Below are positions 59,409 through 62,892 of a DNA stretch of 64,000 nucleotides, one piece after another. The stretch is from Candidatus Zipacnadum vermilionense (GTDB lineage Bacteria > Armatimonadota > Zipacnadia > Zipacnadales > Zipacnadaceae): NCBI GenBank assembly GCA_029821755.1, contig JALGSV010000006.1, forward strand, positions 62,001 through 126,000. Reading direction: 5' to 3'. Below the pieces are notes generated by a model. It saw only the letters and a list, made by a program, of their open reading frames with translations, was not told the DNA's origin and did no database searches. Positions within the stretch are counted from its first letter, which is position 1, and each line of letters starts with the position of its first letter. The position numbers and the translations under genes are program-made.

Positions 59409-59437
59409 TTGACACCCGCCGTCATATCAGGTATAAA
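59409..59437 (+). promoter_or_regulatory. Sigma-70 promoter of the TetR gene
   Basis: A perfect TTGACA (59409-59414) and TATAAA (59432-59437) are separated by 17 bases. The predicted transcript start falls near 59444, only about 12 bases before the ATG, so the message is nearly leaderless. Confidence 0.85.
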
Positions 59438-59455
59438 GTAATCGTCTGATGACTT
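59436..59455. promoter_or_regulatory. Candidate TetR operator
   Basis: AAGTAATCGTCTGATGACTT is a 20-base imperfect palindrome (one mismatch in eight paired positions). It overlaps the -10 box and runs up to the ATG of the TetR gene. The placement suggests autorepression. Confidence 0.5.
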
Positions 59456-60046
59456 ATGCCCAAGATACTCGGGCGGCCCCCCGCCGAAGAAGCCAAACGC
59501 GAAGACATCGTCAGTGCCGCTCTCGTCCTCTTCCGGGAACGCGGGATCAAGGCTACTACTATCCGCGAGATAGCGGCGGAGGCGGGAGTCACCAGCGGCG
59601 CGTTGTACCGGCACTTTGACAGCAAGGTCAGCCTGGCCCAGGCCCTGTTTGAGGATTGCGCTGATCGTATGACCGCCTCCCTCCGGCAAGCGGCTGGCGA
59701 GACGGACGACCCCCGCGAGGCCCTGACGTGCACCACCCGGGCTCTGCTGGAGTTCTCCCGCGCGGAGCCGGCGGCGTTCGGGTATATTCTGGACCGCCAC
59801 GAGCGCGAGGTCCAGCGCGCCCAGGTCGGCCGGGTCCTGCCCAAGGACGTCTTCGAGGAGACCATTCGTGCGGGGGTAGAGCGAGAACACTTCCCCCCCC
59901 AGGACGTCAGTCTAAGCGCCGCCCTGATCATCGGCATGAGCCTACGCGCGGTCTTCTTCCACGAGCGGGAGATGCTGGAGTCGTCCTGGGAGGAGATGGC
60001 CGACCGGGTAGTAGCGGCGGCCCGCCGGGTGGTTACACAAGAATGA
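59456..60046 (+). CDS. TetR-family transcriptional regulator
   Basis: 196 residues. The N-terminal helix-turn-helix (about 12-58) contains ALVLFRERGIKATTIREIAA and TSGALYRHFDSK. The C-terminal ligand-binding helices are unique. It is predicted to repress its own promoter and the ferredoxin, DsrE-like and CooS-like genes that follow in the same direction. No ribosome site is seen before the ATG, in keeping with the very short leader. Confidence 0.93.
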   Translation: MPKILGRPPAEEAKREDIVSAALVLFRERGIKATTIREIAAEAGVTSGALYRHFDSKVSLAQALFEDCADRMTASLRQAAGETDDPREALTCTTRALLEFSRAEPAAFGYILDRHEREVQRAQVGRVLPKDVFEETIRAGVEREHFPPQDVSLSAALIIGMSLRAVFFHEREMLESSWEEMADRVVAAARRVVTQE

Positions 60047-60103: not shown

Positions 60104-60487
60104 ATGCCCCAAGTACTGCGCAAGATAGTCAGCATCGACGAGGACCTCTGCAATGGCTGCGGCGCTTGCGTCGCCCCCTGCGCCGAGGGCGCCATACAAA
60201 TGGTGGACGGTAAGGCGAAGGTCGTCCGCGACGAGCTGTGCGACGGCGCCGGCTTCTGCCTGGGCGTCTGCCCCACCGGGGCCTTGCAGATCACCGAGCG
60301 CGAGGCCGAGGCCTTCGACGAAGGCGCGGTGGAACAGCATCTGGAGGAGCGTGGCCCCCTAGCGGTCACCGAGACTTGCTTCCGCTGCGGCACCAACGAG
60401 AATGATGCTCCGCTGCTTCCTTGCCGCACCGGGGGGAAGAGCGTCTGGGTCTGCACACGCTGCCTGCCTGCGTTGATTCATGGGTGA
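60104..60487 (+). CDS. Ferredoxin-like protein with extra C-terminal Cys cluster
   Basis: 127 residues. Cluster motif one is Cys16, 19, 22 and 26 ([11 protein letters not shown]). Motif two has only Cys46, 52 and 56, lacking the usual cysteine at 49 ([12 protein letters not shown]), so the second cluster may be incomplete or carry another ligand. The C-terminal part has five more cysteines (92, 95, 107, 117, 120; CFRCGTNEN, then VCTRC), a possible zinc ribbon or further metal site. It is likely the electron carrier for the CooS-like protein two genes downstream. AGGAGGAATCACC precedes the ATG. Confidence 0.88.
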
Positions 60488-60524
60488 TTCGTCCCGGGTA
60501 CGACGGGCGCCTCGTCGGTTTGGC

Positions 60525-60555
60525 GGGGAGCACCGGCGAGACGCCGGTGCTCCCC
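60525..60555. repeat. Perfect 14-bp hairpin between ferredoxin and DsrE-like genes
   Basis: GGGGAGCACCGGCG and CGCCGGTGCTCCCC are separated by AGA. It ends two bases before the GGAGGAAAGGAG that supplies the ribosome site of the next gene. A related but diverged word (GGCACCGGCGTCTCGCG) is at about 26038. Without a T-run, it may be a transcript stabiliser or attenuator. Confidence 0.65.
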
Positions 60556-60577
60556 GGAGGAAAGGAGAAATGAACCA

Positions 60578-60907
60578 ATGAAGAAGGTCGCCTATCTTAT
60601 AACCAGGAGTGGAACCCAGGAACTCATCGGCGGCTGCCTGCTCAACACCACCAGCACCGGACGCCAGGGCGTGCAGGTCGTAGCTATGTACTTCGCGGAG
60701 GACGGTGTCTTCCACCTGGTCAAGGGCAGCAAGAATGCCGCTAAGGTCGCTCGCGCCATAGCCGAGCAGGGCGTGAAGGTGCTGGCGTGCGAGTGCTCCG
60801 TGAACAACCGTGGTCTCGAGGACCTGTTGATAGACGGCGTGGAGACCGGCCATTTCGCCGAGTTCTTCGCCGCCGCCGAAGAGGCGGACCACGTGATCGC
60901 CCTGTAG
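60578..60907 (+). CDS. DsrE/DsrF-like small protein
   Basis: 109 residues of DsrE-like alpha/beta fold: KKVAYLITRSGTQELIGGC, QVVAMYFAEDGVFHLVKG and EQGVKVLACECSVNNRGL. Cys20 and Cys72/Cys74 could serve as the persulfide or metal-handling sites found in DsrE/TusD-type proteins. In this operon it could deliver sulfur or hold a metal during maturation of the CooS-like enzyme; this is inference. AAGGAG precedes the ATG by ten bases. Confidence 0.75.
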   Translation: MKKVAYLITRSGTQELIGGCLLNTTSTGRQGVQVVAMYFAEDGVFHLVKGSKNAAKVARAIAEQGVKVLACECSVNNRGLEDLLIDGVETGHFAEFFAAAEEADHVIAL

Positions 60908-61005: not shown

Positions 61006-62892
61006 TTGGACCTGACCCAGAAACCCAGCGAGCATCCTTCCGTAGTCGAAGCCTACGAGACCGTGCACGAGGCGGACCTGAGCAACACCGTGGACCGCAT
61101 GGTGGCGCAGGGCGTACGCTGCCAGTTCTGCGAGGGCGGCATCCGCTGCTCCATCTGTTCCCAAGGCCCCTGCCGCATCCTCCCCCGCGCCCCGCGCGGC
61201 GTCTGCGGCATCGACGCCGACGCCCTGGCCATGCGCAACCTGATCCACCTGAACATCATGGGCATCGCGGCCTATAGCCACCACACCCGCGAGGTCGCCC
61301 GCACCCTCAAGGCCACCGCTCAGGGCAAGACTCCCTTCTCCCTCAAGGAGCCCGAGAAGCTGGCCTCCGTCTGCGCCATGCTGGGCGTGGAGGGCAGTAC
61401 CGTAGAGGAGCAGGCTATTGGCCTGGCTGACAAGATGGTGGAGGAGCTGAACCGGGACTACTACGACGAGTCGCTCATGGTCGAGGCCCTGGCCCCCGAG
61501 GGCCGCAAGGCGCTCTGGCGCAAGCTAGACATTTTCCCCGGCGGGCCGCTGGCCGAGATCCAGGCAGCCACCACCCGGGCTATGACCAACATCGATGGCG
61601 ACTTCGTCTCCCTAGCTCTGACCGGCCTGCGCTTGGGCGTCTCCAGCGCCTACGGAGCGCTAGCTCCGCTGGAGCTGGCCCAGGACATTCTCTTCGGTAC
61701 CCCGCGGCCGCATGCCGCCAAGGTCGACCTGGGCATCCTCGACCCGGACTACGTCAACGTCATGCCCAACGGCCACATGCCCTTCGTCGGTTTCGCCCTG
61801 GTGCAGGTTGCCCACAAGCCGGCGAACCAGGAGAAGGCCCGGGCCGCCGGGGCTAAGGGGCTGCACATCGTCGGCTCCATCGAGACCGGCCAGGAGATGC
61901 TCCAGCGCCTGCCCGTAGATGACGTCTTCGTCGGTCTCACCGGCAACTGGATTACCCTGGAGTACGCCCTCGGCACCGGCGCGGTGGACCTGCTGGCCGC
62001 CGACATGAACTGCACTCCGCCGCACATCAAGGAGGTCGCCGATCAGTTCGGCACCGTCGTCAAGGCCGTCTCGGAGGTGATCGGTGTGCCCGGCGTGGAG
62101 CACATGAACTACCGGCCGGAGACCGCGGAGGAGTTGGCCCAGGCCCTCGTCGACCTAGCCATCGAGAACTTCCCCAAGCGCAAGGTCATGCCGCACCATC
62201 CGGTGGAGCGCACCCAGGAGATCCTGACCGGCTTCTCCAACGAGGCGCTCATCGAGGCCCTGGGCGGCACGCTCGACCCGCTGCTGGAGGCCATCAAGAG
62301 CGGCGCTGTCCGCGGCATCGCCGCGCTGGTGAGCTGCACCACGCTCAAGAACGGTCCCCACGATTCCATGACGGTCAACGTGGCGCGGGAGTTGATTAAG
62401 CGCAACATTCTGGTACTCTCCGCCGGCTGTGGCAACGCGGCGACCCAGGTGGCGGGGCTCAATTCGCTCTCCGCGCAGAAGTTGGCCGGCCCCAAGCTGC
62501 GCCCGGTCCTGGAGATGCTCGGCATCCCACCGGTGCTCAGCTTCGGCACTTGCACCGACTGCGGGCGGCTGGCTCTGCTGGTCGGGGCAGTAGCGGACGC
62601 CCTGGGCGTGGATACCGACAAGCTGCCGATAGTGGTGACGGCCCCAGAGTACATGGAGCAGAAGGCGACCATCGACGCGCTCTCCGCACTGGCGCTGGGT
62701 CTGTATACCCACATCAGCCCGGCGCCCTTCATCAGCGGGGCGCCGGCCTTGGGCAAGCTGCTCACGGAGGACCTGGAGGGCATCACCGGCGCCAAGGTCG
62801 CCCTGGGCGAGGACCCGGCCGAGGTAGCGGAGGCGATGGCCCAGCACATCGACGACAAGCGGACCGGCCTGGGGCTGTCCTGCGAGGTGTAG
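61006..62892 (+). CDS. CooS-like Ni-Fe-S protein (anaerobic CO dehydrogenase family), altered C-cluster ligands
   Basis: 628 residues, full CooS length. B-cluster cysteines 48, 51, 56 and 67 are present. The D-cluster region is Cys39-x2-Cys42 (CQFC), not the Cys39/Cys47 pair; residue 47 is Arg. A Cys-x2-Cys D-cluster with [2Fe-2S] is known from Desulfovibrio vulgaris CODH. C-cluster ligands His257 (NGHMPF), Cys336 (DMNCTP), Cys444 (VSCTTL), Cys475 (AGCGN) and Cys516 (FGTCTDC) are kept. The motif matching CooS G-I-C-C-T-G-N-E reads GSIETGQE, so the Cys295-equivalent is Glu293. Lys553 is kept. The start is TTG, ten bases after AAGGAG. No cooC or acs genes are near. CO oxidation is therefore uncertain. 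Confidence 0.88.
   Translation: MDLTQKPSEHPSVVEAYETVHEADLSNTVDRMVAQGVRCQFCEGGIRCSICSQGPCRILPRAPRGVCGIDADALAMRNLIHLNIMGIAAYSHHTREVARTLKATAQGKTPFSLKEPEKLASVCAMLGVEGSTVEEQAIGLADKMVEELNRDYYDESLMVEALAPEGRKALWRKLDIFPGGPLAEIQAATTRAMTNIDGDFVSLALTGLRLGVSSAYGALAPLELAQDILFGTPRPHAAKVDLGILDPDYVNVMPNGHMPFVGFALVQVAHKPANQEKARAAGAKGLHIVGSIETGQEMLQRLPVDDVFVGLTGNWITLEYALGTGAVDLLAADMNCTPPHIKEVADQFGTVVKAVSEVIGVPGVEHMNYRPETAEELAQALVDLAIENFPKRKVMPHHPVERTQEILTGFSNEALIEALGGTLDPLLEAIKSGAVRGIAALVSCTTLKNGPHDSMTVNVARELIKRNILVLSAGCGNAATQVAGLNSLSAQKLAGPKLRPVLEMLGIPPVLSFGTCTDCGRLALLVGAVADALGVDTDKLPIVVTAPEYMEQKATIDALSALALGLYTHISPAPFISGAPALGKLLTEDLEGITGAKVALGEDPAEVAEAMAQHIDDKRTGLGLSCEV

Follow-up and report, generated by a model that had tools for sequence, protein, structure and literature searches.

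A CooS-V-type protein with the TetR and ferredoxin families of HCP operons: a candidate reductase of reactive nitrogen species in Zipacnadia

The window (the whole stretch of 64,000 nucleotides of Candidatus Zipacnadum vermilionense that was analysed) encodes a protein of CO dehydrogenase (CODH) ancestry that we propose to reduce reactive nitrogen species with electrons from a ferredoxin, replacing HCP in the same operon slot, a reading to which we assign a probability of about 0.6. On balance, we also favour the broader view that CooS-V-type enzymes functionally replace HCP: WS1/Zipacnadia and their relatives would share a module of TetR, operator and FrdX-like ferredoxin in which the enzyme has been swapped more than once, with the CODH scaffold recruited as a reactive-nitrogen reductase. 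While the enzyme type is already known (CooS-V), the operon context appears to be new: in the open-licence literature, we found neither the sharing of TetR, palindrome and ferredoxin nor the mutual exclusion with HCP described before.

The CooS reading frame opens with a TTG start codon and encodes 628 amino acids without internal stops. Its product scores 746 bits against the NCBIfam model TIGR01702 (CODH catalytic subunit; cut-off 478), which together with the alignment bears out the whole-length likeness to CODH claimed by an earlier, sequence-only reading of this DNA. The segment G-S-I-E-T-G-Q-E aligns on G-x-C-C-T-G-N-E of CODH, with Ile292 and Glu293 in the places of Cys294 and Cys295. 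That reading had described the replacement of a C-cluster cysteine pair by Ile-Glu; both residues are indeed exchanged, but one C-cluster ligand is changed and not two, because only Cys295 of the pair binds the cluster. Its assignment of Glu293 to the ligand position held up in the alignment with CODHs, in which no substitute cysteine that could fill this position was seen near Glu293. Glutamate is invariant at this site in 96 of 96 clade homologues and cysteine is present in all 14 canonical CODHs compared; since Glu293 is fixed across a large family, a sequencing error is excluded. The remaining five C-cluster ligands (His257, Cys336, Cys444, Cys475 and Cys516) and the cysteines of the B-cluster motif (48, 51, 56 and 67) are intact, as had been claimed, and the D-cluster is of the Cys-x2-Cys form noted there (type III, Cys39-x2-Cys42). 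The acid-base residue His93 of CODH is replaced by Tyr90: tyrosine occupies this position in 93/93 homologues with letters there, and histidine in 14/14 of the canonical CODHs compared. In-frame TGA and TAG flags had suggested selenocysteine or pyrrolysine in homologues, a candidate that was rejected, the flags being terminal stops in the loci checked. Compared with canonical Ni,Fe-CODHs (CooS clades A, E and F), the window protein has the fold, the B-cluster motif and five C-cluster ligands in common but lacks Cys295 and the acid-base His93; its identity to canonical CODHs of the same genome set is 31-39%, with one Methanoperedens group at 43-44%.

Judged by its sequence, the window protein is a CooS-V-type member of clade D, group D-1, the name given within CODH clade D to the structural group of the Cys295-to-Glu type (PMC6344411). 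Among solved proteins, CooS-V of Carboxydothermus hydrogenoformans (CODH-V; PDB 7B7Q) comes closest, with 714 bits versus 418 for the next. The best structural matches of an AlphaFold2 model of the window protein (pLDDT 90.9), a kind of check that the earlier reading had proposed, are the CooS-V entries 7b9a/7b7q (TM 0.97, 52% identity). In a tree of 107 prismane-family proteins covering clade D by its group D-1 (groups D-2 to D-4 left out), the window protein and CooS-V fall into one 85-member D-1 clade (support 0.92). The protein is therefore placeable, contrary to the earlier statement that it could not be put in a clade from sequence, and it lies outside any clade that combines proven CO activity with the same residues, grouped instead with the CO-inactive CooS-V. 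Named homologues from candidate division WS1/Zipacnadia are 62-73% identical to it.

CooS-V carries, besides the Cys-to-Glu exchange, a correlated Gly-to-Cys exchange that creates a Cys-x2-Cys D-cluster; its active site is a Ni-free Fe/S/O hybrid cluster, and it catalyses neither CO oxidation nor CO2 reduction (PMC9311411). Hydroxylamine is reduced slowly (0.13 per s, with methyl viologen as donor), no reduction of NO could be measured over background with artificial donors, and the potentials are ~300 mV lower than in E. coli HCP, a gap that led the authors to infer a function different from that of HCP; a redox-dependent cluster rearrangement and channel gating were also described (PMC9311411). 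The likeness of the window protein to CooS-V extends over the whole length and the fold and includes both exchanges, and all of the CooS-V residues His259, Asn337, Cys338, Cys449, Cys480, Cys521 and Glu556 are kept (window His257, Asn335, Cys336, Cys444, Cys475, Cys516 and Glu551), whereas Cys519 stands where CooS-V has threonine. By homology to CooS-V, the window protein is predicted to hold a Ni-free Fe/S/O hybrid cluster. The sequence-only reading had proposed that a changed Ni-Fe-S cluster might mean a reaction other than CO oxidation; the altered reaction is well supported, CooS-V having the same glutamate and no CO activity, but the cluster of CooS-V is a Ni-free hybrid and not a modified Ni-Fe-S cluster.

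The window protein further differs from CooS-V in its surroundings, as it is encoded in a one-strand operon in the order TetR-ferredoxin-DsrE-CooS (Table 1) and is the sole member of its family in the genome, no further Prismane/CODH-family gene having been found there. The promoter-like element ahead of the operon recurs as the same -35 box with an AT-rich -10 region at the equivalent place in four related genomes (G001, G021, G026 and G042). The structure model of the ferredoxin is poor (pLDDT 62.7), its C-terminal part being better modelled, and the orthology of the protein to FrdX is putative. The DsrE-family protein scores 57 bits against the SaoD model, under the cut-off of 169, and a DsrE-family gene is also present in G002 (L032). 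In this genome, which lacks the TetR, an ORF at about 6.1-7.1 kb of L032, judged by eye to resemble a flavoprotein of the thioredoxin-reductase type, lies directly upstream of the ferredoxin and could be the electron input. The inverted repeat ahead of the DsrE gene is not followed by a T run.

Table 1. Features of the CooS operon (window positions)
Feature	Position	Strand	Basis
Promoter-like TTGACA-N17-TATAAA ahead of the operon	59409..59437	+	Direct reading
Likely TetR operator (predicted): imperfect palindrome AAGTAATCGTCTGATGACTT that overlaps the -10 box at its end	59436..59455	.	Comparison of upstream regions
TetR-family regulator	59456..60046	+	PF00440, 65 bits
FrdX-like ferredoxin, 2x[4Fe-4S] motifs and C-terminal CxxC...CxxC; likely electron donor	60104..60487	+	Pfam Fer4 models
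Perfect 15-nt inverted repeat with 3-nt loop, between ferredoxin and DsrE genes	60524..60556	.	Repeat search
DsrE-family protein (SaoD-like)	60578..60907	+	PF02635, 35.6 bits
CooS-V-type enzyme gene (CODH clade D, group D-1)	61006..62892	+	ORF, models, alignment, tree, fold

An inverted-repeat search of the promoter returned nothing, and the imperfect palindrome emerged only on comparing five upstream regions. In each of these, whether from a D-1 operon (the window, G001 and G042) or an HCP operon (G021 and G026), AAGTAA precedes the TetR gene at the 3' end of the -10 region or a little past it, and is followed by TnACTT or TnACTC after 8 bases (window and G001) or 4 bases (G042, G021 and G026), a difference in spacing from which we conclude that the operator-like site has drifted. 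Genome-wide searches with the pattern AAGTAA-N4-8-TnACTY recovered the operon site as the sole match in G021, G026 and G042, together with one more in G001 and two more in the window genome (G000); in G002, which lacks TetR, the pattern had no match anywhere in the genome. The more diverged TetR genes of G020 and G025 have a different palindrome, around GTTAGTTATCGATAACTAAC, at the equivalent place. We infer that TetR binds at the palindrome. A search of twelve genomes with the window TetR gave a match in seven, and in 7/7 the best match was at the ferredoxin operon: at D-1 CooS operons in G000, G001, G020, G025 and G042, and at HCP operons in G021 and G026.

In G021 and G026, which have no D-1 CooS, the order is TetR-ferredoxin-HCP: the HCP gene is preceded by a TetR homologue (38-41% identical to that of the window) and a ferredoxin of the same family, and a palindrome similar to that of the window follows the -10 box. 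Searches for the Prismane family, the ferredoxin and the CooS of the window were run on 61 related genomes; once classified, the matches showed D-1 CooS in 15 and HCP in 29 genomes (eight HCP-class matches being short fragments assigned by exclusion) and both in none (Fisher p = 9e-6, with kinship ignored and assemblies incomplete); widening the set to the whole order added zero genomes. HCP identity was confirmed in three operons by scores of 767-837 bits to two HCP models. The ferredoxin family, nearly always present in one copy per genome, lies within 6 kb of D-1 CooS in 12 genomes, of HCP in 11 and of canonical CODH in 0, and apart from all of these in the remainder. By a tree of 35 ferredoxins, the partner must have changed four times, and well-supported branches impose at least two of these switches, many single forks being weak; the tree nests the HCP-linked pair of G021 and G026 among short forms linked to D-1. 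In other operons of the set, the neighbour of the ferredoxin is an Rrf2-family regulator, again with either enzyme (HCP, e.g. in G003; D-1 CooS in G038). The D-1 CooS of G038 is read in two frames (G038:C8:141891-143650, L128; residues 4-365 and 385-625), reflecting either an assembly error or a broken gene. In two loci, a small Cys-rich zinc-ribbon-like protein is encoded between the ferredoxin and HCP genes (L114:3173-3463 and L118:3113-3349).

Beyond these relatives, the ferredoxin, chosen beforehand from the window, occurs within 5 kb of 22 of 80 D-1 loci versus 0 of 20 canonical CODH loci taken from D-1-bearing genomes (p = 0.005). Recurrent neighbours of the 80 loci include Crp/Fnr regulators (about 11-12), flavo-diiron proteins of the anaerobic NO reductase type (9), MsvR (9), rubrerythrin (8), HAO-like multihaem cytochromes (7, mostly in the Methanoperedens group) and ferredoxin-thioredoxin reductase, as well as a YgbA-family gene (PF11756) at six loci of Desulfurobacteriaceae (L090, L101, L105, L106, L108 and L110), whereas 32/80 have none of the listed families. 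These counts are descriptive only, since the D-1 loci themselves, many of them close kin, supplied the list of families; a pooled stress-gene test (45/80 vs 0/20) was dropped as evidence, being circular for the same choice of families. At L108, the YgbA-family gene lies directly downstream of D-1 CooS. Among 49 D-1 genomes outside the window relatives, whose assemblies may be incomplete, HCP was found in two (G079 and G098) and D-1 CooS was the only Prismane/CODH-family protein in 16. A 2026 survey of gene contexts reported no clear pattern for clade D and a high co-occurrence of clade D with HCP; this differs from the exclusion seen here between D-1 and HCP, and the survey had pooled all of clade D. 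In Methanoperedens BLZ2 (L043:2449-4314, minus strand), a second CODH-like gene lies ~3.7 kb from D-1 CooS; its product, about 43-44% identical to the window protein, keeps cysteine at the 295 position (GSMCTGQE) and has glycine at the second D-cluster cysteine, and is a clade-D-like relative useful for dating the Cys-to-Glu change.

The arrangement resembles the hcp-frdX operon of the HcpR regulon in Desulfovibrio and Clostridium, in which a hybrid-cluster-type enzyme is likewise accompanied by a local regulator and a ferredoxin-like protein (PMC545781, PMC1274295, PMC12915319), except that the enzyme is of the CooS-V type and the regulator is TetR and not HcpR (Crp/Fnr); the window CooS adjoins a ferredoxin family that itself adjoins HCP in relatives, as in an operon of that type. 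The hcp-frdX pairing has been described (PMC545781, PMC1274295), and in Clostridioides difficile NO induces both genes together and cells become NO-sensitive when either is knocked down (PMC12915319). With HCP, as represented by TIGR01703 and NF003658, the window protein has in common the superfamily, the TetR/ferredoxin slot and, by homology to CooS-V, a hybrid-cluster-type site, yet it scores only 51-52 bits against these models (cut-offs 360.8 and 367) and has CODH-type N-terminal cluster motifs. As D-1 CooS stands in HCP's place with the same kind of ferredoxin and TetR, the simplest assumption is that it has a similar task. We envisage a Ni-free homodimer in which a Fe/S/O hybrid cluster would be held by His257, Glu293, Cys336, Cys444, Cys475, Cys516 and Glu551. 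Electrons would pass from the FrdX-like ferredoxin to the D-cluster, the B-cluster and the hybrid cluster, where the substrate, in all likelihood NO or hydroxylamine or else another small reactive nitrogen species, could be reduced. The TetR repressor, seated just behind the -10 box, would silence the operon until displaced on a stress signal, and in the window lineage CooS would stand in for HCP, with a regulator and a donor of the same kinds.

The slow turnover of hydroxylamine by CooS-V and its undetected NO reduction, both with artificial donors, are a counterpoint to NO or hydroxylamine as substrate, and the potential gap of ~300 mV to E. coli HCP is one to an HCP-like role, although such low potentials would also fit a low-potential ferredoxin as donor. 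The same data raise the alternative that the enzyme is a hybrid-cluster reductase for another substrate (peroxide, a sulfur compound or some further small oxidant), with the HCP slot denoting general redox stress. The rubrerythrin, flavo-diiron and ferredoxin-thioredoxin reductase neighbours fit oxidative stress as well, and the operon of the window contains a DsrE-type sulfur protein; on the other hand, the TetR and ferredoxin families are common to HCP, which, where studied together with frdX, serves in NO defence, and D-1 loci have YgbA and flavo-diiron proteins of the NO-reductase type as neighbours. We therefore regard another substrate as rather unlikely, while taking it seriously.

For clades C and D, a function in redox or gas sensing or in regulation has been suggested. 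Here, it could draw on the redox-dependent cluster rearrangement and channel gating of CooS-V and on the regulators near clade D genes, but seems improbable, given that the regulator is a separate TetR common to HCP operons and that a dedicated ferredoxin and a complete B/D cluster relay suggest turnover. The sensor or storage role raised by the sequence-only reading likewise gained no specific support from this context, which favours a reductase with its own ferredoxin. Still harder to sustain is a working CO dehydrogenase with Glu293 substituting for the cysteine ligand: TIGR01702 does name the protein a CODH catalytic subunit and 5/6 C-cluster ligands remain, but CooS-V with the same residues is without CO activity and without Ni, the C295E variant of CODH-II is Ni-deficient and impaired (PMC6344411, PMC9311411), the acid-base histidine has become tyrosine, and the genome has no second Prismane/CODH gene; we give this reading almost no credence.

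With a regulator, an operator-like palindrome and a ferredoxin in common with HCP operons, along with the exclusion of HCP, the physiological role of CooS-V-type 'CODHs' gains a specific, testable proposal, namely the ferredoxin-dependent reduction of reactive nitrogen species, and a named likely electron donor. The findings are also a caution that many genes annotated as CO dehydrogenase, some of them the only 'CODH' of a genome, should not be taken as evidence of CO metabolism.
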